Of a DNA stretch of 64,000 bases, positions 3,227 through 19,508 are shown piece after piece. Numbering within the stretch: the first letter of the stretch is position 1; the number at the start of each line of letters is the position of its first letter. The notes under the pieces were generated by a model. That model was not told the DNA's origin. It did not search any database and worked only from the letters and a program-made list of their open reading frames with translations. The stretch comes from Oceanobacillus sp. FSL K6-2867 (lineage in GTDB: Bacteria > Bacillota > Bacilli > Bacillales > Amphibacillaceae): positions 62,001 through 126,000 of the forward strand of contig NZ_CP150144.1 in assembly GCF_037963145.1 (NCBI RefSeq). Reading direction: 5' to 3'. Made by a program: the position numbers and the translations under genes.

Positions 3227-3484
3227 CTATTTACTTCTGCGATTCTTATGCTTGTAATAGCGTCTTTGATAGCTATTTCTTTTGTACTTTGGACCGATAA
3301 AAACACCTACTAAAATGATTCCAATAATGATAGGTATACCGAAAGCTATTCCTGTGGCAGCACCTGCACTATCAATTATACCAGTATCGAGTAATAAGTC
3401 GCTTGTGAATTCTATAGCAGCTAATATAGCTTTTAGAATTGCGTCTATTACGTTTCCAATATATTCGCCAATCTGGTTCACCAT
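3227..3484 (-). CDS. Small membrane protein, paralogue of the gene at 3763-4005
   Basis: An 85-residue protein with no function I recognise. It has an amphipathic N-terminal half (about 1-33), a LLLDTGIIDSAGAATG segment, one strongly hydrophobic helix (about 45-64, ending in GPKYKR) and a very basic Lys/Arg/Tyr/His-rich tail. The DTGI-DS...AT...GPKYKR core is shared with the 80-residue neighbour upstream (KTGIVDS...AT...GPIRR), so the two look like a diverged tandem duplication. AGGAG lies 6 bases before the ATG. It is the last gene of the pilus block. Confidence 0.65.
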   Translation of the reverse strand: MVNQIGEYIGNVIDAILKAILAAIEFTSDLLLDTGIIDSAGAATGIAFGIPIIIGIILVGVFIGPKYKRNSYQRRYYKHKNRRSK

Positions 3485-3762: not shown

Positions 3763-4005
3763 TCAATTCGATCCATACGTTCTTCGTATTGGACCCCATA
3801 TCCACCCTATCAATATCAGGAAGATACCTAACACCACTAAAATCGGTATAACAGTAGCTGTTGTAACACTGTCAACAATTCCAGTTTTAAGCAATAAATC
3901 TCTAAAGAATATAATCACCCAGATTGCTGACCCAATTATAAATCGATAGATTAACTCAACAATACCTTCTAGAAAATCAATTATCGGTGCGAAAAAATTG
4001 GCCAT
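3763..4005 (-). CDS. Small membrane protein at the end of the pilus/signalling cluster
   Basis: An 80-residue protein with two hydrophobic stretches (about 18-38 and 49-69), a KTGIVDSVTTAT linker and a GPIRR basic end. It is paralogous to the 85-residue protein downstream. AAAGGAGGG precedes the ATG by 6 bases. A perfect 12-bp hairpin (4052-4080) separates it from the EssB-like gene, so the two small genes may form their own transcript. The function is unknown. A membrane partner of the pilus or signalling proteins is a guess from position. Confidence 0.65.
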   Translation of the reverse strand: MANFFAPIIDFLEGIVELIYRFIIGSAIWVIIFFRDLLLKTGIVDSVTTATVIPILVVLGIFLILIGWIWGPIRRTYGSN

Positions 4006-4051: not shown

Positions 4052-4080
4052 AAGCTGTATAATGCAATATTATACAGCTT
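4052..4080 (-). terminator. Perfect hairpin downstream of the EssB-like gene
   Basis: Arms AAGCTGTATAAT (4052-4063) and ATTATACAGCTT (4069-4080) pair without mismatch. On the minus strand they are followed by AATTTATTT, a poor U tract. This may be a weak or attenuating terminator, or a processing site, between the EssB-like gene and the small membrane genes. Confidence 0.5.
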
Positions 4081-4129: not shown

Positions 4130-5506
4130 TTAATTAAGATCGTCAATCTGTTCATCAATTTTATCGATTGCCTTTTCTTTTTCATCATCATCAAGATCAT
4201 CATTTGCTTTCATCAGCTTTTTTTCTTTTTTAAGTGCTGAAATATGAAGCTTTGTATTATCAAGATCTTTTGCTAGTTTAATTGCTTCCTCTGTATTGTC
4301 TAGTTGTATGTAACTTCTAGCCGCTAATAACTTTGCACGTTTATTATCGGTTAGATCATCATAAAGTGTTACAACTTCCTCGTAGGCTTCATTGATCCAA
4401 GCTTTTTCAATTTGTACCACAGCCAAACTTGATTCAATTCCTAAAATCGCCTTTTTTGCCTTATCTGAGTTCTTTGCAACAAGTGCTTTTATAACCTCTT
4501 TATGATATGCTTCTCCCAGGTCAGCTGCAGCTGTAAGACTTTTAACAGTATCTAATTCAATATATTGTTCCATTAATGTATGCTCTGCACTTTCATCCAG
4601 TTGATTAGCTGATTCAAATTGCGTAATCGCTTCTTCGGTATCTCCTACAATCGTAGAACGATATGCATGCATAATTGTTCGGTTATCATCAAGCAACTGC
4701 TGAAGCTCTTTATTTTTTTCTGTTAGCATTTCGATATTTTCCTCAGACTTCTGTTCTTCTTCTGCACCAGCAGAATTTACTTCTTTATTAAGTGGCACAA
4801 CTTGGATCACATATATGACAAGCATTCCAACTATAAGACCGATGAGCACCCCAGACAAGAGTGTCATTTTTTTATTCGGGTTTTGGGCTGGTTCAGTCTG
4901 TTTCTTAATTGATGTTGGTGTAGGTGTATTACGTGCTGTGTGAATGATTTGATTTAGATCACGAATGGAGTTTACGTGTCGAATACTTTTTGCAATCGGT
5001 TCATTAAATTTCAGTTCCGATTTTTCATTCATATCATTAAAATTATAGGTACTGTAAAAATATAGCAATACCCGCTTCAGTTCTTTTAAGAGCTCAGATG
5101 TATTCATTTCCTCTTTAGGAAAAACAGAACGAATTCCTCGATGAGCAAATTTAATATCCCCCTCTGGATTCATATAAATGTTTTCAGGATGAATCAGTGT
5201 TGTATATTGTGTACCAATTAAGCTTTCCACCATCAGCATGTTCGTTGCTGCTTTTTGCTTTAATTTATTGGATGCTTGCTTGTATTCTTTTATTTTTTTG
5301 TAATTTCCTTCTTTTTTATAAAAAATACGTATGACCTGTTGATCCACCATATAATGCTGACATTCAAAAAACAAAGGATCCTTTCGTTTCAATTCTTCAA
5401 GCTGCTCTGCCTCTACTAAATTCGTTTCCGCTATTGGAATTTCATATACGACGACATCATCTTTTTCTTCGATTATTCCAAATTGCAGATTCTGTTGATC
5501 TGGCAT
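4130..5506 (-). CDS. EssB/YukC-like membrane pseudokinase
   Basis: 458 residues, close to B. subtilis YukC. The N-terminal ~200 residues resemble the EssB/YukC pseudokinase fold: KDPLFFECQHYMVDQQVIRIFY, then LIHPENIYMNPEGDIKFAHRG (about 104-124), the HPEN...RG signature of that family. No lysine/HRD/DFG kinase set is present. One membrane helix follows (about 214-237), then a coiled coil (250-275) and a helical, TPR-like acidic C-terminus that would be extracytoplasmic if oriented as in EssB. EssB is known as an essential membrane part of Firmicutes type VII secretion. Here no ESX ATPase or WXG100 gene is visible, and it follows FHA, PP2C and kinase genes in a Tad pilus cluster. AGGAGGGG precedes the ATG. 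Family assignment is by motif reading only. Confidence 0.75.
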   Translation of the reverse strand: MPDQQNLQFGIIEEKDDVVVYEIPIAETNLVEAEQLEELKRKDPLFFECQHYMVDQQVIRIFYKKEGNYKKIKEYKQASNKLKQKAATNMLMVESLIGTQYTTLIHPENIYMNPEGDIKFAHRGIRSVFPKEEMNTSELLKELKRVLLYFYSTYNFNDMNEKSELKFNEPIAKSIRHVNSIRDLNQIIHTARNTPTPTSIKKQTEPAQNPNKKMTLLSGVLIGLIVGMLVIYVIQVVPLNKEVNSAGAEEEQKSEENIEMLTEKNKELQQLLDDNRTIMHAYRSTIVGDTEEAITQFESANQLDESAEHTLMEQYIELDTVKSLTAAADLGEAYHKEVIKALVAKNSDKAKKAILGIESSLAVVQIEKAWINEAYEEVVTLYDDLTDNKRAKLLAARSYIQLDNTEEAIKLAKDLDNTKLHISALKKEKKLMKANDDLDDDEKEKAIDKIDEQIDDLN

Positions 5507-5530: not shown

Positions 5531-6439
5531 TTAGATGAATGAAAAGACAATGTAACCAATCAATACAATGGATATGGATATAATTGAAATAGGTCGGAGC
5601 AACGTCCAATCCCACTTTCGATTTTGCTTTTTTTCCCATTCTTCTTTTGCCTTCAGCATCAATATCTTTGCTTCTCGTGCATCTTGAAGTCGATTCTCAG
5701 GCTCTAGTTCAACTAAATGCGTAACACATTTATCAAGACTTTTTGGAAGTCTTTTATGTAATTGTTTGATTGGCTTTTGAGCAATATAGACATATTTCCC
5801 TTGGGATAATAAGTAATATATAAGTGCTCCGAGTGAAAATAAATCGGTACGTGTATCGGTTTGCTTTTTTTCAAATTGCTCTGGTGCCGCAAAACCAACC
5901 GTGCCAACTTGAACGGTGTCCTTCATCCGACCTTGCTGAAACCTCCTTGCAATTCCAAAATCAATCAGCTTTATCTCTCTATCCTTGTTGATCATAATAT
6001 TTCCTGGTTTTATATCTCGATAAATTATAGGATATGGTTTTTGTGTATGTAAATAGTGAAGTACATCGCAAAGCTGTACGCCGACTTTGATGATAGTGTC
6101 TAGTGGCAATTGATTATTGTATAGCTGAAAATAATCCGATAATGACACTGCATCGATGTATTCCTGTACGAGGAAAAAATAATCCGCTGTTGAGAAAAAA
6201 TCAACGACACGCGGCAAGTTAAGATGTTCTAATTCACTCAGCAGCTTTGTTTCGTCAATTAACTTGGCTGCTAGTTTACTTTCCATATTTGTAATCTTTA
6301 CCGCCCACCGCCGATTAGTATCGTTCACTTCCTCAACGAAATAAACTTCTGACATACCGCCTGAAGCAATATGTGAGAGAACGTGGTATTTTCCATTTAA
6401 AATATCACCTTTTTTTATATGGATATTATGTTTATTCAT
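5531..6439 (-). CDS. Membrane-anchored serine/threonine protein kinase
   Basis: Hanks-type kinase of 302 residues from the ATG at 6439, chosen for GAGGTG 7 bases upstream; a GTG at 6460 overlapping the phosphatase stop is the alternative. The active set looks complete: glycine loop ASGGMSEVY (25-33), WAVK lysine 48, catalytic loop YRDIKPGN (140-147, Tyr in place of His), DFG (160-162), and an activation segment ending VGTVGFAAPEQF. After the kinase domain comes a short charged linker and one C-terminal membrane helix (about 278-302) with no extracellular sensor, so it is a tail-anchored cytoplasmic kinase. It sits between a PP2C phosphatase and an EssB-like protein. The upstream FHA protein is the obvious phospho-dependent partner (inference). 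Confidence 0.92.
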   Translation of the reverse strand: MNKHNIHIKKGDILNGKYHVLSHIASGGMSEVYFVEEVNDTNRRWAVKITNMESKLAAKLIDETKLLSELEHLNLPRVVDFFSTADYFFLVQEYIDAVSLSDYFQLYNNQLPLDTIIKVGVQLCDVLHYLHTQKPYPIIYRDIKPGNIMINKDREIKLIDFGIARRFQQGRMKDTVQVGTVGFAAPEQFEKKQTDTRTDLFSLGALIYYLLSQGKYVYIAQKPIKQLHKRLPKSLDKCVTHLVELEPENRLQDAREAKILMLKAKEEWEKKQNRKWDWTLLRPISIISISIVLIGYIVFSFI

Positions 6440-6456
6440 TACAAACACCTCGTCTA

Positions 6457-7401
6457 TCACATTTTGTTTCCTTTTAAGAAGGAAAAGAGCCCCTTCTTTT
6501 CCATTGTATGTTCTGTATTTACATATAGGTTGCGAATGAGCATAAGCGTAATATTATCATTTGCATCGGAAAAATTAGAGAAATTAATTAAGTAATCACA
6601 GATTGCTTGAAGATTGGTATACTCTTTTTCTAAGCTAACAAGCATATTCTTAATTTCTTCATTGGAAAACAATGAGTAAAACCCATCACTGCAAACTAGA
6701 AATAGATCACTTGCTTGATAATCCCCTTTATGGCTATACATATCAATCGTATTTTCAATTCCAAGACATTGTGTAAGTACATGTCGTTTTGGATGGTTTC
6801 TTGCCTCTTCTTCACTTAATGCCCCTTTTGTTACTTGTACCTGCACCCAAGAGTGATCTTCTGTTAGCTTTAAAAGCTCGGGTTTTGTTTCAAGAATTTC
6901 AGTATGCTGTTCCTCTAATAAATTCGACAGATATTGCTCGTTCATAGTTTCCTGTTGAAAATATTGCTGAAGACCGTAATTCCAATTTTTCATATGATAG
7001 ATTCTGCTGTCTCCTATATGAAGTACTGCATAAGATCCTTGATACATTACAAGCATTGAAAGTGTCGTACCCATTTTCTTCCCTGTTTGCTGTGATAAAG
7101 CTTGAATTCCTTTATTGATTTGCTGCAATGTATGTTCTGTTTCTTTTAAAACACGATCAATCGTATCTTTTCTTTTAACTAGTTTTGGTATCCGCTTTTT
7201 CCACCATTTCTCGAGCTCTTCTATCGCAAATCGACTTGCAATGTCGCCAATTTCATAGCCGCCCATGCCATCAGCCACAACAAATAATGCTATTTCGTTT
7301 CCATTAAAATCTTTCTCCATCAAATGTAAATAGGAATCTTCATTTTTATTTTTTTTCATACCTTGGTGTGTAGCTACACCAGTTTGCCAGTTTCTGCTCA
7401 T
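6457..7401 (-). CDS. PP2C-family serine/threonine phosphatase
   Basis: Metal-dependent phosphatase of 314 residues from the ATG at 7401, which overlaps the FHA-gene stop in an ATGA; the longer GTG at 7416 lacks a good ribosome-binding site. Motifs in order: KNEDS, VVADGMGGYEIGD, GTTLSML, HIGDSRIYHM, LTEDHSW, HVLTQCLG, VCSDGFYSLF and ANDNITLMLIR, which supply the Asp metal ligands. About 45 extra residues sit between GDSRIYHM and LTEDHSW. It should oppose the kinase encoded immediately downstream, with which it overlaps by 0-4 bases depending on start. FHA-PP2C-kinase triads are known for type VI secretion and other envelope machines; the substrate here is unknown. Confidence 0.93.
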   Translation of the reverse strand: MSRNWQTGVATHQGMKKNKNEDSYLHLMEKDFNGNEIALFVVADGMGGYEIGDIASRFAIEELEKWWKKRIPKLVKRKDTIDRVLKETEHTLQQINKGIQALSQQTGKKMGTTLSMLVMYQGSYAVLHIGDSRIYHMKNWNYGLQQYFQQETMNEQYLSNLLEEQHTEILETKPELLKLTEDHSWVQVQVTKGALSEEEARNHPKRHVLTQCLGIENTIDMYSHKGDYQASDLFLVCSDGFYSLFSNEEIKNMLVSLEKEYTNLQAICDYLINFSNFSDANDNITLMLIRNLYVNTEHTMEKKGLFSFLKGNKM

Positions 7402-8903
7402 TGTGGACTGCTCCACTTAAATGTATAGTGTGCTTTCCCAAGTTCAAATTCATCATCTTCTTTTAATGCGTAGACTTTGTATGGAACCATTGGTGCTCCA
7501 TTTAATTTAGATCCATTCTTCGAACCTAAATCCTTAATACCAAAGCTTGAGCTATCAATTTTAATAATTTCAGCATGGATTCTTGAAACCCCAACAGCGG
7601 TATCAGGGTTGTCAACTGCCTCTTCGTTTCTGCCAATTAAGAAGTTATTTTTATTGATTGCAATCGTCTGTGGTGCTTCATCTGCTGTCGTCCGTATAAG
7701 TGTAGCCGAAACATCAACTTCCTTCTCCATTGTAGCAACGGAAAGATTAGACTCTTCCTCTAGAAGCACTGTATCTTCATTATCTGCAACTAATAAAGTT
7801 GTATCTGATTGCGTTGCAGCAAGTGATGTAGCATTTGATGGTCTAAATTGTGTTTGATATTGCTGTTTCGGTATTTGTACATTAAATTGTTGCTGCTTTT
7901 GTCTTAATTTTTGTTCAGGTTTTGGTTGTTTAGTTACCGATTTTTCCAGTGTCTGTGGTAGTTCTGTCTCAACCTTAGTAACTCCTGGTCGCCAGATTTT
8001 CCAAAATACCAATACGGCTACCATGACAACAACTGTTAAAATACTGCTTGTTACCAGTACCGTTGGATTTCTATACATGTCGTAAAACTTCCAAATCAGT
8101 GCTATCGCTAGTAATGAGCCCATGACAAGATATACTTTCGTTCTTGAGGTCAGAGGCGGTAGCTTCTTTTTTACCTTTTTCTTTGTCATACTTTGGCTGC
8201 CAGCTACAATCGGTTCTGGATGTGACTGAACTGCTGTGTTTTGATTTTCCGTAAAGTTGCCTTCCATCTGATTGTCATTTGTATATTCATGATTTGAATA
8301 CATTTGGTTGACATTAGATCGAAGTGAGATCAATTCTAATAATAATGTTTTTAATCCACTTAAACTAAAGGATTCGTTTTTGATGTAGTTCAAAATACTT
8401 TTAAATTCATTTCCTTGCAGTCCGTCAATTTCACCAGCAACGTCTGTTAGAAGTTTTTTCATGTCTTCTGTTACACTATTCGTTTTCTCAAGATCGATAA
8501 CTGGTATATAGGTCAGATATACATCACTCGGATTTTGCCCGATAAATAGAAATTCCATTTGTAAGATATAATTTTTCTGATCAAGCATATAAGAGCTTGC
8601 TTCCTCAAGTGTATTAATAAGGGAAAGAAATAATTGATAATAATCATTCATCGTAGCCTTGTTATCACGCAAGTAGGAAATTAACTTTTGCTTCGAATTA
8701 ATATCATAATGAAGCTTCGTAACCAAATCGATATTCTCCAATGACATTGGCAGCATATGTGGTATTCGATTAGACTGAATCATCTTTATTTGAACAGCGT
8801 TTAAGTTGTCTGCCGTTAATTTCTTATTGTCTTTTTTAGAAAAGACGATTGATTGACCATTTTGGGTCGAATAATCATACTCCAAATTGTAGATTGTTCC
8901 CAT
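7398..8903 (-). CDS. DUF6382/FHA-domain membrane protein
   Basis: A 501-residue protein. Residues 1-200 look like the DUF6382 domain (YNLEYDY..., YLRDNKA, MLDQKNYIL, VYLTYIPV), which resembles the EssB/YukC N-terminal fold. A linker leads to two membrane helices (about 257-273 and 281-301), a Gln-rich and acidic linker, and a C-terminal FHA domain (about 416-495) with LIGRN, VSRIHAEI and DLGSKNGSKLNG, the phosphothreonine-binding residues. The FHA end should face the cytoplasm. AGGAGG precedes the ATG. The next genes encode the phosphatase and kinase, so it is probably the phospho-reader coupling them to the pilus membrane machine (inference). Confidence 0.88.
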   Translation of the reverse strand: MGTIYNLEYDYSTQNGQSIVFSKKDNKKLTADNLNAVQIKMIQSNRIPHMLPMSLENIDLVTKLHYDINSKQKLISYLRDNKATMNDYYQLFLSLINTLEEASSYMLDQKNYILQMEFLFIGQNPSDVYLTYIPVIDLEKTNSVTEDMKKLLTDVAGEIDGLQGNEFKSILNYIKNESFSLSGLKTLLLELISLRSNVNQMYSNHEYTNDNQMEGNFTENQNTAVQSHPEPIVAGSQSMTKKKVKKKLPPLTSRTKVYLVMGSLLAIALIWKFYDMYRNPTVLVTSSILTVVVMVAVLVFWKIWRPGVTKVETELPQTLEKSVTKQPKPEQKLRQKQQQFNVQIPKQQYQTQFRPSNATSLAATQSDTTLLVADNEDTVLLEEESNLSVATMEKEVDVSATLIRTTADEAPQTIAINKNNFLIGRNEEAVDNPDTAVGVSRIHAEIIKIDSSSFGIKDLGSKNGSKLNGAPMVPYKVYALKEDDEFELGKAHYTFKWSSPQ

Positions 8904-8968: not shown

Positions 8969-9487
8969 TTAAAAGAACGCGTAATAATAAACTGCAATAA
9001 TTGCCGGGGCAACAGCATACATAAAGGGGAAACGCGTTGCTTTTGTTACTTTATATTCTTCCAGTTTCCTAAAATCCCGGGATAATAAAGAACCGAAAAG
9101 TTGAAAAACAGCAATTGTTAATTTTTTCATGATTGTTTTTGTAGATAATAGAATAATAATAGCTAGAATACCTGCAAAAAAGATGGAATACATCATGATA
9201 TATAAGACCATTTTCACACCAACAAAAGCCCCAATAGCAGCGAATAATTTAACATCACCCGCACCAATTGCCTTAAATACATAAAGGATTAGGAAAATGC
9301 CACCGCCTACCAATAAACCAAAAAATGCAAATAGAATCCCGTTTATTCCATCTGCAATCAGATGATACACAACTCCTACAGCCATCCCGCCAGCAGTAAG
9401 CCAGTTGGGAAGTTTGTGATACTTAACGTCTGTTATAAAAGCAATAATTACTAAAACAAATAAAAGATAATCGTAAATCTCAAGCAT
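8969..9487 (-). CDS. Type IV prepilin peptidase (TadV/CpaA-like)
   Basis: Membrane aspartyl protease of 172 residues that removes prepilin leader peptides. The ATG at 9487 follows AAGGGAG; the longer ORF would overlap the upstream TadE gene. It is polytopic, with the two catalytic aspartates at FITDVKYHKLPNW (Asp20) and GAGDVK (Asp78). It lacks the N-terminal methyltransferase domain, as usual for A24-family TadV. Expected substrates are the Flp pilin (14479) and the two TadE-like pseudopilins (9501 and 13815) in the same cluster. Confidence 0.93.
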   Translation of the reverse strand: MLEIYDYLLFVLVIIAFITDVKYHKLPNWLTAGGMAVGVVYHLIADGINGILFAFFGLLVGGGIFLILYVFKAIGAGDVKLFAAIGAFVGVKMVLYIMMYSIFFAGILAIIILLSTKTIMKKLTIAVFQLFGSLLSRDFRKLEEYKVTKATRFPFMYAVAPAIIAVYYYAFF

Positions 9488-9500
9488 TTCCTGCTCCCTT

Positions 9501-10094
9501 CTAGGCACCTGCCCAAAGCCGTTCATAGGAGGTTTTCTTTAAAATAATCGTTCGATTCACAAATGGAAAATTGATATCTACTTCATAGCTTGCATTAATT
9601 TCAAGATACGCTCCGCTTCCTGTGAATGATGTTGGTGTAACTACCTGATCAACTGTCAGTTTAGCTGGATCAAAAAACTCTCCTCCAGTCTTCGCGCTGA
9701 ATTTTTCACGTAAAATTGGTTCAATAACACTTGCGGTAAAGGAATTTAAATATCCATGCGGATCGATTTCAACACCAAGGTAGTCCATCCCCTCTTTAAA
9801 TAAGTCTGCTGCGATCTCAGGAGTAATACCAACTTGATCCGCACCAGTGGACTCTAATAACCCGCTGAATTTACTTTCAGCTAAATCCGTTATGCCAGTA
9901 ACCGCAATTTCAGCAGGATAAGCATGGGTGACAATCACCTCATTTGTTTCGGCAAGGGACTGATAGAGCGCCATGTCTGCAATACCAATTCGTATAATAT
10001 TAGCTAGAAATACGATGAATAACATGAAAAAAGGTAATATCATAGCAGCTTCCAGTGTCAGACTACCTTTTTCATTTTTCATAAATCGTCTCAA
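9501..10094 (-). CDS. TadE-like pseudopilin (second copy)
   Basis: 197 residues from a TTG with GGAGGGG 7 bases upstream. It has a short basic leader, then NEKG^SLTLEA: a class III signal with cleavage after Gly10 and Glu at +5, followed by one hydrophobic helix (AAMILPFFMLFIVFLANII). The rest is an extracytoplasmic alpha/beta region ending FVNRTIILKKTSYERLW, as in TadE families. It should be processed by the peptidase encoded just downstream and act as a minor pilin. Gene order places it after the two DUF4352 lipoprotein genes. Confidence 0.85.
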   Translation of the reverse strand: MRRFMKNEKGSLTLEAAMILPFFMLFIVFLANIIRIGIADMALYQSLAETNEVIVTHAYPAEIAVTGITDLAESKFSGLLESTGADQVGITPEIAADLFKEGMDYLGVEIDPHGYLNSFTASVIEPILREKFSAKTGGEFFDPAKLTVDQVVTPTSFTGSGAYLEINASYEVDINFPFVNRTIILKKTSYERLWAGA

Positions 10095-10118: not shown

Positions 10119-10745
10119 TTAGTTTGCTTCTGTTGCATCAAATTCCCATGTCAATTTACTCTCGTAATCTTCAAATCCAAAATAAATAATATACGTATCT
10201 ACTTCATAGTCTGCATTCAACACTACATTTCCAGTTCGCTCTTCTCCAGGCTCAGTTGGGGGCTGTTTATTCATGGCTTCATCAATAACAATGGACGTGT
10301 CTCCTCTTCCTAGTAACTCCCCAGCATTTGCAAAACCATCATTCTCAATCTTATCTCGATCTTCACCAGCAACGATGTCAGGATAAGCAAACCCTTGACC
10401 TGGGATACCAACTTCTCCATGATTTTTCATCGTAAAGTTTCCAATAACAAAAACGTTGTCTTCGGAATTATGACCTAGTGGTCGTTGATCACCAATTTCA
10501 GGTGTAATTTCAACAGAATTTAGTGTGATCTCTAATATATTTCTATTAGCCCAATCAATAACCCACCCTGTTTCACCAATAGATAGTCCTAATTGGTCTT
10601 TAATTCTTAATGGGTCTTCCCTTTCGACTAATTCTTCTGGGACTGGGATTGACTCTGCTTCCTCGTCATTTTCATCAGCTCCACAAGCTGCTAGCATTGT
10701 AATTCCAATTATAAGTAGTAGTATGAAGCGGAACTTTTTACACAT
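10119..10745 (-). CDS. DUF4352-like lipoprotein in the pilus cluster
   Basis: 208 residues from the ATG at 10745 (GGAGG 8 bases upstream). Type II signal peptide with lipobox MLAAC and the lipidated Cys at 21, a short acidic linker, then one globular domain with an LSIGETGWVIDWANRNILEIT opening and VIGNFTMKNHGE. This opening and the IGNF-KNHG pattern fit DUF4352-type immunoglobulin-like domains of Firmicutes surface lipoproteins. It is related to the lipoprotein gene directly upstream. Position between TadG-like and TadE genes suggests an outer-surface assembly or anchoring role, which is not proven. A TACTGCACG hairpin lies between the two lipoprotein genes. Confidence 0.7.
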   Translation of the reverse strand: MCKKFRFILLLIIGITMLAACGADENDEEAESIPVPEELVEREDPLRIKDQLGLSIGETGWVIDWANRNILEITLNSVEITPEIGDQRPLGHNSEDNVFVIGNFTMKNHGEVGIPGQGFAYPDIVAGEDRDKIENDGFANAGELLGRGDTSIVIDEAMNKQPPTEPGEERTGNVVLNADYEVDTYIIYFGFEDYESKLTWEFDATEAN

Positions 10746-10850
10746 TGCAAATACCTCCACTCTATATTCATTTTTTATTTAGCATGTTTCTATATGTACT
10801 AATGGATTTAATAATATTATCGATAATTTGGACTAAAAGTTTTATGTATG

Positions 10851-10905: not shown

Positions 10906-11568
10906 TTACTCTGCTTCTTCCGCTGGAATAACCCAAGTTACTTGGTTACTTGATCCTGAACCAGCAATACCTGTTCGAAGACGGAAGTAATAATTTTCTC
11001 CTTCATATATCTCTGTAACAAATTGACCTGATACTTCTTCACCAGGAGCTAGTTCGCCCGTCATTTCTTCGACACTATCAAAGCTCTCCGCATAATTTTG
11101 GTAACCTGTCATTTCAAGATTATCCGTAACTTCTAAGCCATAAAGTAAATCCTGTACAGATTGTGCATCGTCGCCAGTATTTTTAACGGTTATATCGAGC
11201 AATATATATGCATCTAGTTGAGAAGTATTACCGTCTAGTTCATCTAACACTTGAGCTTCATCCAATGTAATTTCATATGTTGTTAAGTCAGAATCAAATT
11301 TTCCAGTATCTCCAATTGATAAATCTTCTTGATCTTCAGTTCCCGTATTGAATCCGCCACTATTTGAATCATTGTCGGTATCTTCTTCCGTATTTTTTTC
11401 TTCTGTGTTATCCTCTTCTGTTTCGGCAGATTCATTTGTTTCATCATCGTTTGCTTCTGTTGTGCCATTGTCAATTTCTTCGGATGGTTCTGAATCATCA
11501 CTACTACAAGCTCCCAACAATAGAGTACTAATAAACAACACCGCTAATATTTGCAACATTTTTTTCAT
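10906..11568 (-). CDS. DUF4352 lipoprotein in the pilus cluster
   Basis: 220 residues with signal peptide and lipobox LLGAC (Cys21). About 65 residues of acidic Glu/Asp/Thr/Asn-rich spacer follow, then a DUF4352 domain (LSIGDTGKFDSDLTTYEITLD, AYILLDITVKNTGDDAQSV, ELAPGEEVSGQF). DUF4352 domains are extracellular beta-sandwiches. The long spacer would hold the domain away from the membrane. A plain ribosome-binding site (GAGGTGAGAC) lies upstream. Pairing with the similar lipoprotein downstream points to gene duplication. Confidence 0.8.
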   Translation of the reverse strand: MKKMLQILAVLFISTLLLGACSSDDSEPSEEIDNGTTEANDDETNESAETEEDNTEEKNTEEDTDNDSNSGGFNTGTEDQEDLSIGDTGKFDSDLTTYEITLDEAQVLDELDGNTSQLDAYILLDITVKNTGDDAQSVQDLLYGLEVTDNLEMTGYQNYAESFDSVEEMTGELAPGEEVSGQFVTEIYEGENYYFRLRTGIAGSGSSNQVTWVIPAEEAE

Positions 11569-11594: not shown

Positions 11595-13805
11595 CTAATA
11601 AGCATAGTTTACTTCTTTATCAATATAATAGGTTTTACCCTCTACTCTTCCGCTAAGTGCTCCTGTATGACCAAGCATATCCATAATTCCAGGAATAAAC
11701 CATAACTCAATAGATGTAGTTGCATTTGCTGTAATATAAGTTGATGATTCGGTTAAATCTGCATCTGTTTCATGTTCAAGAACAGCCATCACTCTTTCCG
11801 TTGTTTTTCCTTCAGGATGTGCGAATAAGAATAAACGCAGATGGTCTTTATAAGTCATCTTAGGTTCTGGTTTACCAGGTATTAAATCTACTGCTCTACC
11901 TGCAGTAATAACTCTCATATTCTCAGCCGTCGCAAGAAAAGCATCTGCAAGAGCTGCAACCCAGAAATATGGTCCGAAAATTTTACTTCTTGGCTTCTTA
12001 AGTGCATCCACTAAATTAATCGCGAAACGTAAAGCGAAGATTTCTCCCATGGCTGCCATGTAATTGGCGCCAAATGAATGATGTCCGTATAGGATATATT
12101 CAACCTGATTATTTTCAAATTTGTAACCAGAAGTCCCATCGGTTGGAAATGTGTGATGAGAGAATCGGGTTAAAATGTATTCATTAAAATATAATTCATC
12201 TCTACCTGCAATTAAAAGGTTACCAAGGTTTTCAAATAAAATATCAATAAACCCCATTGCCTGATCTGCCGTCTGATCTTTATCTTCAAGCTCAAACTGT
12301 TCACTGTTGGATTCTACTGCCCCTTCATATTTAACAACAAGGTCTGCTAGCTTCGTATAGATATCTCCGTCACCAGTGATATCATTATAGGCATCACTAA
12401 TTTCATCAATTTGATCCGATAAATCATCTAATGCTTCATCAGCCTCTTCTTCTTTTTCTTCCATTTCTTCATCTTCGAATTCAGCTCTTCCTTCTTCTAA
12501 AAGGTTAATTGCATTGTTTGTATGCTCTTTGGCATTTGAATGATATAACCGAGCATGGTAGATATCACCACTTCTGCCCGTGTCACCAAATTCGTTTTTA
12601 CTTCGGTTTTTAAAGTTACTATCAATATTAGCTTTGATTTCTCCCAATTTAGGATTTAGGCCATTTGTCTGTCCTTCACTCCCTTCCATATCCTCAATGC
12701 CGTCTTCCACTTCTTGAATAACATTTGTTAACATTTCTTGATCAAGTACATAGTCATCTACGGAATCTAATACAGCATCTAATTGTGAGCTATCTCCCGT
12801 ATCAACATCACTTTCATTCTCCGATTGAGCATTATCATAATGTTCTCCCTTGCTATCCTTAGCATTCTCGATCGTTTCACTCACACTATTATTTAGCTCT
12901 TCAGCTTCTTTTAATAGTTCTAACGCATCTTTTAAATCCTGCTCGACACCTTCAGCTATTGGGATAATGTCATTCAAAAGACTGCGGGCATTTTGTTTAA
13001 AGGAATCAGCTTTCTCTTTGTCCTCTTCTTCTTTTTCTAACTCTTCTTCACTCTTTTCATCATCATCATCTGATGGCGGTGATGGATTTTTGGGATACAC
13101 CTTGATATATTCCAGATGCCCATAAAATAAATCCGCGAAATTATTTACTGTTGGATAGGTATTTCTATCAGTTGAACGGATTCTATCCTGAATGGAATCC
13201 AACTTTTCTTTTGCACTTTTTAATAGCTCGATGGCTTCATCTAACTTTTCATCCCTGTTTTTCACGTCTTCTTCGATATCACCGATAATCTCCGTAAGTA
13301 CGGATGCTTTCTCCATGTCATCCGATATTGCTAGAAAACCTTCAATTAGAGCTTCGCCAATCTCTACCGGTGCTTGGTATTTCATTTCCTCCAACACTTG
13401 GTGCTTTAAAATTTCTTTATTGGCGAGCCCTCTATCTAAATTCAACTCCGTTGTTAGCTCACCTTCTTCAGGTACGAGGTTCACAAATTTAAACCCTTCG
13501 CCATCCCCAGGCTGTAAATTCTTTTCGAACACCGTTTTAAAAATGGCATTTGCTTCACTCTGATCGCCATCAAACGCAAATAATCCTTTATCCTGCAAAC
13601 TTTGATGGTACGAAGACATCGTTGAACGCAATGCAACCTTTGCCGCTTGATCTGTCTGGCGCTCTGCTACAATAATACGAGCATAATCAATTAACACTGC
13701 ATTAAAAAAGAAAAGAAGCAGGGTAACGATAATCAGATAAATGGAAACAGCGCCACGATCGTCGACGATGAACTTATGTATAAACTTCTTTATACAATTT
13801 TTCAT
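11595..13805 (-). CDS. Large TadG-like pilus assembly protein (DUF5702-like)
   Basis: 736 residues. The N-terminus has a basic segment and DDRG-AVSIY followed by a membrane helix (about 20-42), like TadE/TadG proteins, but position +5 after the Gly is Tyr instead of Glu, so processing by the prepilin peptidase is doubtful. A long acidic coiled-coil region (about 150-480) is rich in Glu, Asp and Lys. A globular C-terminal third contains YILYGHHSFGANYMAAMGEIFALRFAINL and ends with a beta-rich part. This layout matches large Firmicutes Tad-locus proteins. It probably forms an extracellular scaffold for the pilus (inference). It is followed by the lipoprotein genes and preceded by the first TadE gene with 9 bases between. 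Confidence 0.82.
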   Translation of the reverse strand: MKNCIKKFIHKFIVDDRGAVSIYLIIVTLLLFFFNAVLIDYARIIVAERQTDQAAKVALRSTMSSYHQSLQDKGLFAFDGDQSEANAIFKTVFEKNLQPGDGEGFKFVNLVPEEGELTTELNLDRGLANKEILKHQVLEEMKYQAPVEIGEALIEGFLAISDDMEKASVLTEIIGDIEEDVKNRDEKLDEAIELLKSAKEKLDSIQDRIRSTDRNTYPTVNNFADLFYGHLEYIKVYPKNPSPPSDDDDEKSEEELEKEEEDKEKADSFKQNARSLLNDIIPIAEGVEQDLKDALELLKEAEELNNSVSETIENAKDSKGEHYDNAQSENESDVDTGDSSQLDAVLDSVDDYVLDQEMLTNVIQEVEDGIEDMEGSEGQTNGLNPKLGEIKANIDSNFKNRSKNEFGDTGRSGDIYHARLYHSNAKEHTNNAINLLEEGRAEFEDEEMEEKEEEADEALDDLSDQIDEISDAYNDITGDGDIYTKLADLVVKYEGAVESNSEQFELEDKDQTADQAMGFIDILFENLGNLLIAGRDELYFNEYILTRFSHHTFPTDGTSGYKFENNQVEYILYGHHSFGANYMAAMGEIFALRFAINLVDALKKPRSKIFGPYFWVAALADAFLATAENMRVITAGRAVDLIPGKPEPKMTYKDHLRLFLFAHPEGKTTERVMAVLEHETDADLTESSTYITANATTSIELWFIPGIMDMLGHTGALSGRVEGKTYYIDKEVNYAY

Positions 13806-13814
13806 TTAGCTACC

Positions 13815-14432
13815 CTACTTCCCTTTACTAATAAATTTTTGGATGTGCTGTGCATACTCCATTAATTTCTCGGTACCATAAATGGCAAAATCTGTCGTTC
13901 GAATTACTTCTGCAGGCTCTGATATTGGGTGACTGGCAACTGCTTCAATTTCTGAAATCCCAAATATATTTGCTACAGATGCTGGTAATGCCAGTGATCT
14001 GCTTATTTTTACTTCAACTTCAGGTATTAAAAAATTATTATGAAATTCAATTGTTGCATCATAGCCATTAATTCTGCTCGTTTTTGCAGACACTAAATCA
14101 TTGCCAGGAACGATACCGCCTAGACCAAACTTATCCAAGAAATTATTACCGGTTAAACGCCAATAAAGCCCATCACCATTCATGGTCGTATGCTCAGTCA
14201 TACTAAATTCACCAGTACTAACATCAGCAGAACTATTATTCCAAGAATAGGCCATTGCACTTGCAATCGCATTTGCTTGATATTGTGACGTTACTTTTTC
14301 ATAGATTACAAGACTGAAAAAGATAAAACAAAGGACTAAGATTAGAAGAATTGGAAAGAGCATTGTTGCTTCAATTGTAAAGCTGCCTTTTTCTTCCCGC
14401 TTTAAATCGTCGATCATTTTTCTGTATGACAT
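13815..14432 (-). CDS. TadE-like pseudopilin (first copy)
   Basis: 205 residues. The leader has REEKG^SFTIEA, cleavage after Gly16 with Glu at +5, followed by the TMLFPILLILVLCFIFF helix. The C-terminal domain would be extracytoplasmic and carries no repeats. It lies between the Flp pilin gene and the TadG-like gene, the usual place for a minor pilin. A plausible ribosome-binding site (AAAGGA) precedes the ATG. Confidence 0.88.
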   Translation of the reverse strand: MSYRKMIDDLKREEKGSFTIEATMLFPILLILVLCFIFFSLVIYEKVTSQYQANAIASAMAYSWNNSSADVSTGEFSMTEHTTMNGDGLYWRLTGNNFLDKFGLGGIVPGNDLVSAKTSRINGYDATIEFHNNFLIPEVEVKISRSLALPASVANIFGISEIEAVASHPISEPAEVIRTTDFAIYGTEKLMEYAQHIQKFISKGK

Positions 14433-14478: not shown

Positions 14479-14670
14479 TTATCCATTTTGTTGGAAATTG
14501 CCAATATTCTCATCACCAAAGTCTAAAAGATCTTTAACCCAACCAATAATTTGATCTCTAAAAAGTAATGCAATTACGACGATAACAGCTATAATTAACA
14601 TAATCTCCAATGTCTGCAATCCTTCTTCATCATTCCAAAAGTTCTTGATCGATTCTTTAAGCATATTCAT
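14479..14670 (-). CDS. Flp-type major pilin
   Basis: A 63-residue type IVb prepilin. Leader MNMLKESIKNFWNDEEG^LQTLE has cleavage after Gly17 and Glu at +5, then a membrane/polymerisation helix (IMLIIAVIVVIALLF) and a short tail. The mature chain is about 46 residues, the normal size for Flp/Flp1-like pilins. AGGAGG lies 8 bases before the ATG. It sits directly after TadC and before TadE, and is probably the main subunit of the fibre. Confidence 0.9.
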   Translation of the reverse strand: MNMLKESIKNFWNDEEGLQTLEIMLIIAVIVVIALLFRDQIIGWVKDLLDFGDENIGNFQQNG

Positions 14671-14718: not shown

Positions 14719-15582
14719 TTACAAAATGGTAAGTGCAGGATAACCAACTATGATCATAACCGCCACAAAGATTAGTATAAGCGGAAATACAAGTTTAGAA
14801 GAAGCCTCTTCACCTTTTGTTTTGGAAATAGCCTTTCGTTTCTCCCATAATTCATGAGACAATTCTCGAAGTGCCAGAATTAAATCATTTCCACCCTTTC
14901 GATAATTCAATAGAACTGTTGTAGTAAAAATAGAAATTTCCTGCACACCGCATTTCTTACTTAAATCATTCAATACTTGATGAAAGGGTTCATTACTTAC
15001 CATTTTATTTACCGTTTCTGTTAATTCTTTAATCAGCGGAGAATTCGGGTCATTTGTTTGTGTAACACATCGGATTAATGCTTGCTGCACCGTTTCCCCT
15101 GCATTGACTAGTAATATAATTTTATTAACAACCTCTGGAAGCTCTGTAAGGATTTTTTCCTTGCGCTCCTTCTCTTGACTAGAGAGTTTGCTGATCATTG
15201 CATACGGAATTAAAACAGTGAATAAAACCCCAACGATAAAGATCGTCACATCTCCCTCAGCCAGCAGGGTGAATAAAAATGTTCCTAATAAGCATACGAG
15301 AGATGTAGAGATTAGTTGTGCGACATACATTCTCGTATGCTGCAGAGCTGTTCTATTGCCATACAAACTAATCATTTTTTGTTGAATTTTCGCAATCTGA
15401 CTGTATAGCCGTTCCATAACTTTTAGATTGTCGATAATGAATAACGACACCGGAGCCATAAACATTAGTGGATAGTCATTTTTAAAATCCTCCAAAACTA
15501 CATCATATTGCTTTCCAACTTTTACAGAAATTCCAAAATAGATAACGATAATTACTAAAGTCAATATCCCATAGACCATCAT
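14719..15582 (-). CDS. TadC-like type II/IV secretion F-domain membrane protein
   Basis: 287 residues, polytopic, with one T2SSF domain (about 120-250) and hydrophobic segments near the N-terminus, at about 90-125 and at the C-terminus. LPEVVNKIILLVNAGETVQQALIRC is the family-typical segment. It pairs with TadB as the inner-membrane platform that couples the ATPase to pilin polymerisation. The AAGGTGTGA ribosome-binding site overlaps the TadB stop codon, so the two genes are translationally close. Confidence 0.92.
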   Translation of the reverse strand: MMVYGILTLVIIVIYFGISVKVGKQYDVVLEDFKNDYPLMFMAPVSLFIIDNLKVMERLYSQIAKIQQKMISLYGNRTALQHTRMYVAQLISTSLVCLLGTFLFTLLAEGDVTIFIVGVLFTVLIPYAMISKLSSQEKERKEKILTELPEVVNKIILLVNAGETVQQALIRCVTQTNDPNSPLIKELTETVNKMVSNEPFHQVLNDLSKKCGVQEISIFTTTVLLNYRKGGNDLILALRELSHELWEKRKAISKTKGEEASSKLVFPLILIFVAVMIIVGYPALTIL

Positions 15583-15588
15583 GCTTCA

Positions 15589-16536
15589 TCACACCTTAAT
15601 ATCCATAATTCGTTGTCCATACCAATAGGAAAATACAAGAATGCCTAAACAAACTGTCATGATTAGCGGACCACCCGAGCTCCAATCATACATTGGGGCT
15701 AAGTAATCCTCTGCACTGTATTTCAATAATAGAATCATTCCTACTGGTGCAACACTTAAAATTCGTGATTCGAATTTCTTTGATGCAATCATGACGGCAA
15801 CTTCCTGCTGAATATCAATTTTTTCACTAATAATATCCGACGTTCTTCGGATAACTTCTACGAGATTCCCACCCGTTCGTTTACATGTAATAAATACATC
15901 CGCAAAATTTTGAATATCTTCCATATCAGAACGGATACTAAAGTCTAAAATTGCATTCTCGATTGTTTCTCCATTCTCAATTCGCCGATTAATAATCTCG
16001 AACTCCTGAATAATTTCAGTATTCGGGTCTGGATACAAAAGGTAAAGATCTGAAACAACTTCCTTAAAGCTATTCTCGATTGACCTACCTGCTGCAAGTG
16101 AGGAGGACAGCGATGCGATTGCTTCTTTAAATTGCAGCTTTAATTTTTCCTTACGTTTTTCCAGGAGTGCTTTTTTCTGGATTTTTGGATAAAATAATCC
16201 AGCAGCTCCTAAAATAATGGCAGCTATAACACTCTCATAAAATAAATAACCTACAAAAGCGAAAAATACGATTGCAATAACTGCATATAAGATATACTCT
16301 TTCATCGAAAGGTGATACTCCGAGTAATCGACAAGATGCGAATCAATTTGCTTATCTGACCGATGACGCATTCGTTCCATAAAGTGCTTCTTTTTTAACT
16401 GTTCCAACTCTGTGTTTTTAGCAACTTCATCTACCAGTTCTGATTGATTTCCCCCTTGTTTCTTTCTTCTCGATACAGCGAATATATACCCTGCTACCAA
16501 AGCAACCAGTAGGATAACTAGAATAATGTCAGTCAT
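15589..16536 (-). CDS. TadB-like type II/IV secretion F-domain membrane protein
   Basis: 315 residues with an N-terminal membrane helix (about 4-21), a basic cytoplasmic segment, two central helices, a T2SSF domain (LKLQFKEAIASLSSSLAAGRSIENSF, about 133-255) and C-terminal helices. This is the standard TadB plan and partner of TadC. It is 4 bases from the upstream ATPase gene, which supports one operon. Confidence 0.93.
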   Translation of the reverse strand: MTDIILVILLVALVAGYIFAVSRRKKQGGNQSELVDEVAKNTELEQLKKKHFMERMRHRSDKQIDSHLVDYSEYHLSMKEYILYAVIAIVFFAFVGYLFYESVIAAIILGAAGLFYPKIQKKALLEKRKEKLKLQFKEAIASLSSSLAAGRSIENSFKEVVSDLYLLYPDPNTEIIQEFEIINRRIENGETIENAILDFSIRSDMEDIQNFADVFITCKRTGGNLVEVIRRTSDIISEKIDIQQEVAVMIASKKFESRILSVAPVGMILLLKYSAEDYLAPMYDWSSGGPLIMTVCLGILVFSYWYGQRIMDIKV

Positions 16537-16540
16537 ACAA

Positions 16541-17785
16541 TCACCCGCTTACCTTTTCTTGAACCACTTCAATACCAGCAAGATTCGCTTTTGATTTGTT
16601 AACCAATGGATTACCCGTAGAAACGAGTTTGCCAATTACTTCTCCATTTTCTTTTTCTCCTTCTTCTACAAACTCATAGAGTGGATTTAAAATGACCTCC
16701 CCATTCTCAACACCTAGCACCTCACTAATAGCAACAACTTTTCTTGAATTATCCCGCAACCGCATTAAGTGAATCATAATATCAATTGCTGAGGAAATTT
16801 GTTTACGAATTACTTCAACCGGCAGGGTCGCACCATTCAGTACCATTGTCTCAAGCCTGCTCAGCATATCTTTTACAGAGTTAGCATGACCGGTAGAAAG
16901 TGAACCATCATGTCCAGTGTTCATCGCTTGCAGCATATCAAGCGCTTCTGCACCACGTACCTCACCGACAATAATTCGATCAGGCCGCATACGTAAGGAA
17001 GATTTGATTAAATCACGAATTGTAATTTCTCCCTTTCCTTCCGTATTCGCATTACGAGTTTCCAAACTGACAAGATTCGGAACATTTTTAATTTGTAATT
17101 CAGCTGAATCCTCAATCGTAATGATTCGTTCGTCTTGTGGAATAAAATTCGATAATACGTTTAGGAATGTTGTTTTTCCCGAGCCAGTACCTCCACCGAT
17201 AAAAATATTATATTTTGATACAACAAGCTTCCTTAGAAATTCTGCTGCTTCTTCTGAAATAGAATCATATTTGATCAAATCTTCAATGAGCAGTGGTTTA
17301 TCTGGGAATTTCCGAATTGTCATTACTGGACCTTTCAATGCAATTGGTGGTAGAACAACATTTACCCTAGATCCGTCTTGTAGTCTAGCATCTACTATTG
17401 GTGAGGATTCATTAACGACCCGATCGACTTTTGATACAATGGATTGAATAATATCCTCCAGCTTTTGCTCACTTTCAAACTGAATATCTACTTGTGTGGT
17501 TGAACCAAATCGTTCGATAAAAATTTCCTTGTGATTATTAATCATAATCTCGGTAATTGTTTTATCATCGATTAATGGTTGAAGTACATCATATCCACGG
17601 AATGAATTATAGATTCGCTCAACTAAGTATTTGATTTCGACAGACTTTAACTGATGTTCTTTCGCATAGTCAAAGACTGCAGCTTCCACATATTCTTTTA
17701 ACTCTTCATTCGTAATCGAGTGCATTAAATCAAGGGTTTCACGAAGCTGCTGAATGAGCCTTTTCACAACTTGTTCCTTATCCAA
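16541..17785 (-). CDS. TadA/CpaF-like pilus assembly ATPase
   Basis: Hexameric secretion ATPase of 414 residues that powers Flp pilus assembly. Start is a TTG with GGAGGGGG nearby, overlapping the TadZ stop. Walker A is GGTGSGKTT (198-206), an IEDSAEL Asp box follows, Walker B is RIIVGEVRG (270-278) and the His box is LSTGHA (296-301). The N-terminal domain holds the EIMINNHKEIFIE segment typical of CpaF proteins. No retraction ATPase is present in the cluster. Confidence 0.96.
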   Translation of the reverse strand: MDKEQVVKRLIQQLRETLDLMHSITNEELKEYVEAAVFDYAKEHQLKSVEIKYLVERIYNSFRGYDVLQPLIDDKTITEIMINNHKEIFIERFGSTTQVDIQFESEQKLEDIIQSIVSKVDRVVNESSPIVDARLQDGSRVNVVLPPIALKGPVMTIRKFPDKPLLIEDLIKYDSISEEAAEFLRKLVVSKYNIFIGGGTGSGKTTFLNVLSNFIPQDERIITIEDSAELQIKNVPNLVSLETRNANTEGKGEITIRDLIKSSLRMRPDRIIVGEVRGAEALDMLQAMNTGHDGSLSTGHANSVKDMLSRLETMVLNGATLPVEVIRKQISSAIDIMIHLMRLRDNSRKVVAISEVLGVENGEVILNPLYEFVEEGEKENGEVIGKLVSTGNPLVNKSKANLAGIEVVQEKVSG

Positions 17786-18905
17786 TGGTAGAAACCCCCT
17801 CCAGTTCGACTAATATCTTATCGTGAATAATGGATTGAAGTTCTTGATTAAATTGCTCATTCCCTAATATTTCGGAACTGGATTTCATCGTTATCCAGTC
17901 TTCTATAAATGGAAGATAGCCTTCAACGGTAACACCATATTCCTCCATCGTACCTATCATTGAGTCAGTATACTTATTTAAAAGTATTGTCAGCTTATCC
18001 TTAACGACGTTCTCCTTACCAATTAACTTCAATTCTTCAGCAAAAAAAGATTTTGTCTTTAATAAACTTTGCACATCATTTGCAATTGGCCAGATGATTT
18101 GGTCGCACTCTTTGATAGCCGCTATATTTCTTTCATGTAAGGAACTATCAAGATCGACAACAATATAATCATAAGCACCAGTTTCAACAATCCCATTAAT
18201 TAATCGCTTTACGTCTGCTTCATTGAATTCAAGTAATTCATCCGCACTAATCGCAATATCGAAATAATCAACCATTGAATAGGCATCGTATTTTTTTAAC
18301 GCTTCAATTTTAGACAAAAGCTGAGGTGATTCTGCTTTTACATAATAAAATATTTGCAGTGACGGATTGTCTTCAGCAGATGTAAAATATAGTCTTGTTG
18401 TATTTAACAGCTCAAGATTTAAATAAAATACTTTTGCATGATTAAGCGCCAACTGTTTACTTAGGTTTGTAGCAATGGTCGTCTTACCACTTCCTCCGAT
18501 TGGAGAATAAACCGATAGAACTTTTGTTTTCTTGCTTCTGGCCAGTAACTTCCCTGCTGACTGATTTCTTTCATAATAGATTGCAAGGATACTGGAAATC
18601 AGCTGATTTAACCGTTGATAACGAAACACCGATTCCATTGAATCCTTGCTTGTCGATAGCTGATCATCTTCGAGTAGAATTGTGCATGTTTCAGGAGCTA
18701 TATCCAGCTTTGGTTCATATAGCTCTGGACTAATTAACAGAATGTCGATTATGTCTCCCTGTCTAAGGTAGGATGCCAGTTTCCCCTGTCCAGAAAAATA
18801 TGTAACGATAAATCGTGACGCTTCCTCTGATGTACGCAAAAAGGCTGATAATGATTCCATATAGCTACTATTATGGTCTGCCACGACAATTCGTATTTTT
18901 TTCAA
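17778..18905 (-). CDS. TadZ/CpaE-like P-loop protein with pseudo-receiver domain
   Basis: First gene of the pilus operon; it places or assembles the pilus machine in related systems. About 375 residues from a TTG at 18905 with GGTGGTGA 5 bases upstream; GTG at 18938 is possible. Residues 1-110 look like a receiver domain (IRIVVADHN) but the phospho-acceptor position reads LLISPEL, with no Asp. The ParA/MinD-type ATPase domain has a GGSGKTT P-loop (about 137-143), YIVVDLDSSLHE (Walker B) and NDVQSLLKTKS. It overlaps TadA by 8 bases. Confidence 0.88.
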   Translation of the reverse strand: MKKIRIVVADHNSSYMESLSAFLRTSEEASRFIVTYFSGQGKLASYLRQGDIIDILLISPELYEPKLDIAPETCTILLEDDQLSTSKDSMESVFRYQRLNQLISSILAIYYERNQSAGKLLARSKKTKVLSVYSPIGGSGKTTIATNLSKQLALNHAKVFYLNLELLNTTRLYFTSAEDNPSLQIFYYVKAESPQLLSKIEALKKYDAYSMVDYFDIAISADELLEFNEADVKRLINGIVETGAYDYIVVDLDSSLHERNIAAIKECDQIIWPIANDVQSLLKTKSFFAEELKLIGKENVVKDKLTILLNKYTDSMIGTMEEYGVTVEGYLPFIEDWITMKSSSEILGNEQFNQELQSIIHDKILVELEGVSTIG

Positions 18906-19508
18906 TTCATTCACCACCACATTATTTAATGCCTTCACTTTTTCTCACATAATATTACTAAAACTGTCACATAATTTTAAGGGGTTTTACCAAAAACAGT
19001 TATATAGTCCTGGTTTAGTTCGGGATTTATCTTGATTTTAAGATAAGGAGATATATTAAATTTAAGACATATCGATTAAATGCATATATTTCCCTTTTAA
19101 AATTAAATAACGTACGTTTATTGACCATTTATTGAATAAAACAAGAAAAAAAAGACTATTTTATTTTGTTTTCAAAAAATATTTCATATTCCGCATTGGA
19201 AAAATAAGGAATTGCATAATCTTATATACGCAGAACTATTTGCCTAGTTAGTGATAATTAGCTGATTTTTTTCGGGAATGTAACAAATATGTAACATAAA
19301 CGACATGTTCTTTAACATTTCATCTCATGCAAAAATCGCTTTTTGACAGTCATTTATAAGAAAATACGTACTCATTAACAATTAAACTTTTTATTCAGTT
19401 AATTTTAAATACCCGAATGTCTTCCGAAATAAACAGTCTATAAGTAGCATCCTAATTCGCTCATCTTATGATAATATGAAAATACTTACATAGATAAAGG
19501 GAGGAAAT
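18906..19508. other. AT-rich divergent intergenic region of the pilus operon and tcaA-like gene
   Basis: About 570 bases without an ORF, between the divergent TadZ and zinc-ribbon genes. TTATCTT and AAGATAA (19027-19046) form a perfect 7-bp inverted repeat with a 6-base loop, a possible operator or hairpin. On plus, TTGACA occurs in TTTTTGACAG near 19342, but no -10 element lies at proper spacing. No convincing sigma-A promoter was found for the pilus operon on minus. The length fits dedicated regulation, which the sequence does not resolve. Confidence 0.5.

Follow-up and report, generated by a model that had tools for sequence, protein, structure and literature searches.

EssBL is a 458-residue protein encoded on the (-) strand at positions 4130–5506 (open reading frame with ATG start) of a 64,000-nucleotide stretch of the Oceanobacillus sp. 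FSL K6-2867 genome (assembly GCF_037963145.1, contig NZ_CP150144.1, positions 62,001 to 126,000), referred to below as the window. By sequence and by fold EssBL is a membrane protein of the EssB/YukC family, and it is independent of a type VII secretion system (T7SS). Its gene is the last one of a cluster which, judged from the encoded proteins, is a Tad/Flp pilus operon, and EssBL is almost certainly a functional and dedicated part of this operon. The fold was already known from the T7SSb and, since 2026, from a type IV secretion system (T4SS); none of the literature matches listed described it for a Tad pilus. A sequence-only reading of the window had proposed a T7SS-type membrane module within a pilus machine. 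The EssB-family protein in a Tad operon was indeed found; the label proved too narrow, as EssBL belongs to a clade of its own.

Family membership and fold of EssBL

Comparison of EssBL with the Pfam profile YukC (PF10140) gave a score of 94.4 bits (E-value 8.4e-27; gathering cut-off 27.4), which makes the protein a family member. The NCBIfam model T7_EssB (TIGR03926) was matched with 95.3 bits, well below its equivalog cut-off of 229.75. A phmmer search of the PDB sequences revealed similarity to the EssB entries 2ynq (1e-5, residues 380–456 of EssBL) and 4ano (8e-5, residues 26–178) and no significant match to 4ann (0.14).

The AlphaFold2 model of EssBL showed a mean predicted local distance difference test score (pLDDT) of 82.9 and a predicted template modelling score of 0.45, with confident kinase-like and helical C-terminal domains. 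Foldseek, which had been recommended as a check of the family assignment, returned YukC as the top match of this model, and the alignment covered both domains. The protein comprises a pseudokinase domain (residues ~1–195), a linker (~196–215), a transmembrane segment (216–234), a long helix (247–286) and a TPR-like helical domain (290–457). The sequence-only reading had described a single central membrane helix followed by an outer helical domain. One hydrophobic segment, residues 216–234, and the YukC fold agree with this plan, but residues 193–250, which contain the segment, were modelled with a pLDDT below 50, and the transmembrane call rests on hydropathy.

The HPEN...RG signature noticed earlier is present at residues 106–109 and 123–124. 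EssBL was aligned with 25 of its 27 public relatives (alignment A1, 26 sequences; not included were P0015 and P0001, which repeats the protein of the window in shorter form). Row P0027 of this alignment is distant from the others and may belong to the orphan kind described below. P107, N109, R123, G124 and R126 are invariant in A1. In a wider comparison 15 positions, including H106, P107, N109, R123, G124, R126 and P238, were kept at 90% or more both in 25 Tad rows and in 30 T7SSb rows. Residues 106–126 (HPEN...RGIR) can be matched by eye to RDIKPGN...DFG in the kinase encoded next to EssBL; the proline, the asparagine and one glycine are retained, and the catalytic aspartates are lost. EssBL is a pseudokinase, as seen from its degraded kinase motifs and the family residues HPxN...RGxR. 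The ratio of nonsynonymous to synonymous substitutions (dN/dS) was 0.22 and 0.17 against two near relatives; the protein is under purifying selection. The linker motif TPTPTS was also considered as a conserved phosphosite and was rejected, since it is not conserved in A1.

Independence from type VII secretion and relatives at other machines

The host genome consists of one contig of 4.40 Mb with a completeness of 100. A profile search revealed a single YukC gene in it, which is EssBL. No WXG100 match was obtained in the complete genome, and no EssC match exceeded the cut-off of 778 bits. Seven partial EssC matches were observed. The two best, in frames of 791 amino acids (129 bits) and 764 amino acids (125 bits), look like FtsK/SpoIIIE by their size, and the remaining ones reach at most 33 bits. 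The absence of an ESX ATPase and of WXG100 proteins noted for the window was thus extended to the whole genome, and a role of EssBL in a T7SS encoded elsewhere was rejected, as the YukC, WXG100 and EssC searches found no such system.

The YukC profile was further searched in 154 genomes of the family Amphibacillaceae. The matches fell into two classes, a canonical one with 342–464 bits over the whole model (59 genomes; one 223-bit fragment in G102 is included) and one with 40–101 bits (26 genomes). The latter consists of the Tad form, EssBL, in 25 genomes from 13 genera including the window, and of one protein from a conjugation locus (G038, L064), which was excluded from the Tad counts. Also dropped before counting were G113 (L066), whose 26-bit match in a 546-residue frame lies below the cut-off, appears sensor-like by eye and was judged false, and G098 (L065), a broken remnant; G147 (L081), a remnant by size, was counted for canonical EssB only. 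Both G098 and G147 carry broken remnants of the Tad/EssBL operon. In G147 a short DUF6382 piece stands in the Tad place and is directly followed by a short C-terminal piece of EssB.

The genes for a DUF6382-FHA protein, a PP2C-type phosphatase, a kinase and EssBL lie on one strand in all 24 other Tad-form loci fetched. In 22 of these TadZ, TadA, TadB and TadC are found within the fetched stretch; the other two stretches are short and begin at a contig start. A TadA of the window type (at least 596 bits; the next match has 414) occurs in 33 of the 154 genomes, 24 of which possess EssBL. Conversely, 24 of the 25 EssBL genomes have this TadA, the exception being G048, where the EssBL contig begins inside the operon. 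Fisher's test gave P 1e-19 for this association, which is not a true probability because the genomes are related. Every EssBL of the Tad clade in the 154 genomes adjoins genes of the window-type Tad operon.

Canonical EssB was detected in 3 of the 25 EssBL genomes versus 56 of the 129 others, and EssC at E <= 1e-50 likewise in 3 of the 25. WXG100 matches were obtained in four EssBL genomes; they are strong in the three with canonical EssB and EssC, and the fourth (G088) shows one match of 29.3 bits (cut-off 27.3) in a 623-residue frame on a different contig. Each of the three EssBL genomes with a T7SS has a separate canonical EssB. The co-occurrence search suggested by the sequence-only reading yielded EssBL, DUF6382-FHA and Tad genes together in 25 genomes, only three of them with a T7SS. 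NCBI names 9 of the 27 public EssBL relatives 'type VII secretion protein EssB/YukC', yet EssC was not matched at E <= 1e-50 in 22 of the 25 genomes with EssBL.

A survey of 398 genomes drawn evenly from the class Bacilli, some family members included, gave matches in 62. The window scored 641 bits and G064 567 bits, followed by 132 bits for the next match; no Tad operon was found at 11 lower-scoring places that were fetched.

In a quick, unrooted tree of 71 EssB-family proteins the 25 Tad rows form a single clade (SH-aLRT branch support 100), separate from the 30 T7SSb rows, and six T4SS-linked rows and several orphans are placed elsewhere. With no root and long branches in this tree, any of the machines may have been the first to use the EssB module. 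The T4SS-linked proteins are encoded in conjugation loci of Bacilli (L064, L117, L119, L120, L122, L123). Three of the six genes directly follow a VirD4-type coupling protein, that of L120 lies ~2.7 kb after one (Pfam), and in L064 and L123 the preceding protein resembles VirB4 by eye and size. Four orphan EssB-like genes from another Bacilli family (L114, L115, L116, L118) have varied neighbours, among them an iron-sulphur protein, an MFS transporter, a transketolase and a bactofilin. We recognised no gene of a Tad, T7SS or T4SS machine in the neighbourhoods scanned, some of the neighbours were unrelated genes according to Pfam, and comparison of the flanks of the four loci revealed no common neighbour, only the EssB-like frames and antisense frames.

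EssBL shares the pseudokinase–transmembrane–helical plan, the fold, HPxN...RGxR and a proline just past the transmembrane segment with EssB/YukC of the T7SSb (Bacillus subtilis YukC, 6z0f; EssB of Staphylococcus aureus and Geobacillus). It differs from them by an equivalog score of 95 bits, well short of the required 230, its own clade and a host genome without EssC and WXG100. Moreover, its outer part is longer, the helix ~247–286 and the TPR-like helices ~329–383 being unaligned in most T7SSb rows. According to the available parts of a 2026 report (PMC13037476), TraF of plasmid pIP501 (PDB 8cba), a T4SS protein, has the EssB/YukC fold as well, and EssBL has this pseudokinase fold in common with it. 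TraF belongs to a conjugation machine; the same parts of that report mention no kinase, PP2C or FHA neighbours and state that TraF homologs were found in no other T4SS. The term 'T7SS-type module' is too narrow because of the separate Tad clade, the relatives beside T4SS genes or beside no recognised machine, and the fold of TraF; the EssB/YukC fold is better called a shared envelope-machine module. The literature matches listed, which covered few subscription papers and no bioRxiv preprints, included none that describes an EssB/YukC protein from a Tad operon in genomes lacking a T7SS.

Kinase forms, FHA protein and proposed role of EssBL

Three genes of putative signalling proteins precede EssBL on the (-) strand. 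The short Ser/Thr kinase (5531–6460; Pkinase 5.6e-42) has intact catalytic residues and a C-terminal membrane anchor (residues 291–309 of 309) and possesses no extracytoplasmic domain. The PP2C-type phosphatase (6457–7416; PP2C_2 4.5e-13) carries the metal-site motifs and matched the Stp1 model with 190.9 bits (cut-off 230). The third protein (7398–8903) consists of a DUF6382 domain (2.6e-24), a hydrophobic stretch that forms two helices in the model, and an FHA domain (2.3e-11). The PP2C gene shares 19 bases with the FHA gene and 4 with the kinase gene, and EssBL starts 24 bases past the kinase gene.

The FHA protein was aligned with 31 of 59 relatives picked for length and spread (alignment A2, 32 sequences including the window). 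The GR, SRxH and NG motifs of the FHA domain are invariant in A2, and so are T378 and L381 within the otherwise variable linker that precedes this domain. T378 is a candidate self-binding phosphosite. The model of the protein had a mean pLDDT of 73.7. The sequence-only reading had regarded DUF6382 as related to the pseudokinase domain of EssBL. Both DUF6382 and FHA are present, and one kinase was among the structure matches of the DUF6382 model. Profile comparison gave P 3e-5 against the pooled EssB family, but only 0.2 and 0.07 against the Tad rows alone. The kinship is only moderately supported.

Two kinds of kinase resemble that of the window at E 1e-33 or better in the 154 genomes. Short kinases (frames of 268–340 amino acids, with 0–5 residues past the transmembrane segment or no such segment found) are present in each of the 25 EssBL genomes and in no other, and all 25 EssBL loci carry a short kinase without an outer domain. 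Long kinases (569–661 amino acids) occur in 16 genomes. Of 13 measured, 12 have a transmembrane segment with 261–354 residues beyond it and one has no transmembrane call; the outer part of one, scanned with Pfam, showed TPR matches. EssBL was absent from the long-kinase loci in the 15 of 16 genomes fetched, and in the sixteenth (G095) all YukC matches lie at its Tad locus. Eight long-kinase loci (L067–L069, L071–L075) adjoin DUF6382-FHA and Tad genes (of the latter, only TadZ was found in L071). Each also contains two PP2C genes and a giant frame, at least 1,578 amino acids long, which is cut by the stretch end in seven cases; the complete one has 1,977 amino acids and bacterial Ig-like domains. 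In G114, G014, G084 and G097 (L077–L080) genes for FHA protein, PP2C and long kinase are grouped near WXG100 genes.

From its operon partners a signalling or regulatory role of EssBL is plausible. EssBL may act as a membrane scaffold, probably a dimer as YukC. Outside the membrane, its TPR-like domain would contact components of the pilus or receive a signal from the envelope. In the cytoplasm, one face of its pseudokinase domain would dock on the FHA protein, in analogy to the contact of YukC with the FHA domain of its ATPase YukB described in the accessible parts of PMC13037476. The neighbouring kinase and PP2C would control whether a threonine recognised by the FHA domain is phosphorylated, T378 being the best candidate, and the state of this switch would gate the TadA motor, either its assembly or its activity. 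In the sister operons one longer kinase with its own transmembrane segment and outer domain would replace the short kinase and EssBL. Taken as a whole, a scaffold with a phospho-controlled FHA switch on the pilus, we regard this mechanism as evenly balanced between right and wrong. If this is true, some Gram-positive bacteria would possess a phospho-switch devoted to their Tad pili. Since operons with a long kinase can be compared with operons that have a short kinase and EssBL, the function of the EssB pseudokinase becomes testable.

Similar arrangements are known from other systems. A 2024 survey, as far as its available parts show (PMC11217815), describes DUF6382-FHA proteins, phosphatases and kinases in T7SS variants. 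Cassettes of T7SSe, T7SSf and T7SSj (TseJ and TsfJ, both DUF6382-FHA, and TsjJ) contain a PPM phosphatase like that of the Tad operon, and TsfJ is a form with two transmembrane helices. A membrane kinase is present in T7SSe and T7SSj; none was found in T7SSf. TsfV of T7SSf is TadZ-like, and T7SSg and T7SSh adjoin Tad genes. All of T7SSe, T7SSf and T7SSj have an EssC-type ATPase and WXG100 proteins, whereas the host genome of EssBL has neither and instead possesses an EssB-family protein. A parallel in function is the mycobacterial MviN–PknB–FhaA system, in which, according to the accessible parts of PMC12599244, a membrane pseudokinase works with an active kinase and an FHA protein. There, other protein families and another process are involved and the phosphothreonine resides on the pseudokinase tail, whereas the threonine-rich tail of EssBL is not conserved.

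Several observations weigh against the proposed mechanism. The non-conserved threonine-rich linker of the window's EssBL is one of them, and T378 is also kept in the FHA protein P0073, whose locus lacks the PP2C–kinase–EssBL trio. G019 and G094, which stand apart within the EssBL part of the FHA tree, keep Tad and FHA genes, and the PP2C–kinase–EssBL block was not seen there, with only ~4.4 kb visible before the contig end in G019, whose genome is 92% complete. No EssBL of the Tad kind was found elsewhere in either genome, and a window-type Tad pilus may therefore work without EssBL. Both carry a cassette of PP2C, long kinase and giant protein elsewhere in the genome. G095 and G100 possess a long kinase as well as EssBL, so that replacement is not strict but a tendency. 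Furthermore, the pairing counts are not independent and reflect a few evolutionary events on the FHA tree, homology of the outer part of EssBL with those of the long kinases was not demonstrable (P 0.009, probability score 4.5), and one kinase, that of L063, shows an unusual glycine loop and an HRD motif without its R.

EssBL might instead be a plain structural subunit or assembly scaffold of the Tad inner-membrane platform, as TraF may be in a T4SS, with kinase, PP2C and FHA protein regulating something else, or the pilus by a route other than EssBL. EssB-family proteins are interaction hubs in the T7SSb and probably in a T4SS, as the available parts of PMC12599244 and PMC13037476 indicate, and the Tad forms retain two elements suitable for binding, the long helix and the TPR-like domain. 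However, the presence of EssBL follows the type of kinase (all 25 are with short kinases, none is at the 15 long-kinase loci fetched), and at the Tad loci of G019 and G094 EssBL, PP2C and kinase are jointly missing while Tad and FHA genes remain. We consider this explanation rather unlikely. An envelope-stress or surface-sensing pathway that merely shares the transcript with the pilus genes would fit the kinase/PP2C/FHA cassettes found in T7SS variants (PMC11217815, available parts) and away from Tad genes, and the EssB-like orphans where no machine was recognised; as every Tad-clade EssBL in the 154 genomes sits with this Tad operon, such a pathway appears distinctly improbable. That EssBL is a relic or passenger of a lost T7SS without a pilus role is hardly credible and largely refuted, for the T7SS names given by NCBI to 9 of 27 relatives and the canonical EssB in 59 of 154 genomes are opposed by the separate clade, the conserved place in 24 further loci (13 genera including the window), a dN/dS of ~0.2 and the coexistence with canonical EssB in three genomes.

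The place of EssBL in a pilus operon beside kinase, phosphatase and FHA genes suggests that different cell-surface machines reuse one adaptor part. More tentatively, and in our view doubtfully, the pair of EssB-type pseudokinase and FHA domain might be a general membrane adaptor of T7SSb, conjugative T4SS and Tad pili, represented here by a complex of two pseudokinases (EssBL and DUF6382) with kinase and PP2C gating the motor, the short kinase and EssBL being a split long-kinase receptor. If so, a supposed T7SS marker is a reusable adaptor, and genomes annotated with 'EssB/YukC' may have no T7SS.

Remaining genes of the Tad operon

All genes of the operon are encoded on the (-) strand. The first one encodes a TadZ-like ATPase (17778–18938; AAA_31 1.9e-9; the TadZ receiver domain, 3.8e-4, is below its cut-off), followed by the motor ATPase TadA/CpaF (16541–17785; T2SSE 2.6e-60), TadB (15589–16536; T2SSF 3.4e-11) and TadC (14719–15582; T2SSF 4.6e-8). 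A 63-residue Flp-type pilin candidate (14479–14670) was named by eye from its open reading frame. Next come a TadE-like pseudopilin (13815–14432; 1.6e-4, 22.2 bits, just below the cut-off of 22.9), a DUF5702 protein in the place of TadG (11595–13805; 7.6e-13), a DUF4352 lipoprotein-like protein (10906–11568; 3.6e-8) and a lipoprotein-like protein (10119–10760; open reading frame with no Pfam match). A TadE/F-like pseudopilin (9501–10094; no Pfam match) was recognised by eye from its N-terminal hydrophobic segment, and a type IV prepilin peptidase of the A24 family (8969–9526; 1.8e-18) precedes the FHA gene. The TadZ, TadA, TadB, TadC, TadE and prepilin peptidase matches confirm the Tad pilus operon proposed earlier around EssBL. 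No VirB4 or VirD4 conjugation gene was found among the operon proteins scanned with Pfam.

Just 3' of EssBL on the (-) strand lies an AT-rich, terminator-like hairpin of 12 pairs (4052–4080), which is possibly the operon end; the promoter and terminator scans report consensus matches only. Downstream of this hairpin, small membrane proteins are encoded at 3763–4005 and 3227–3484, with relatives in 7 and 2, respectively, of the 27 loci searched.
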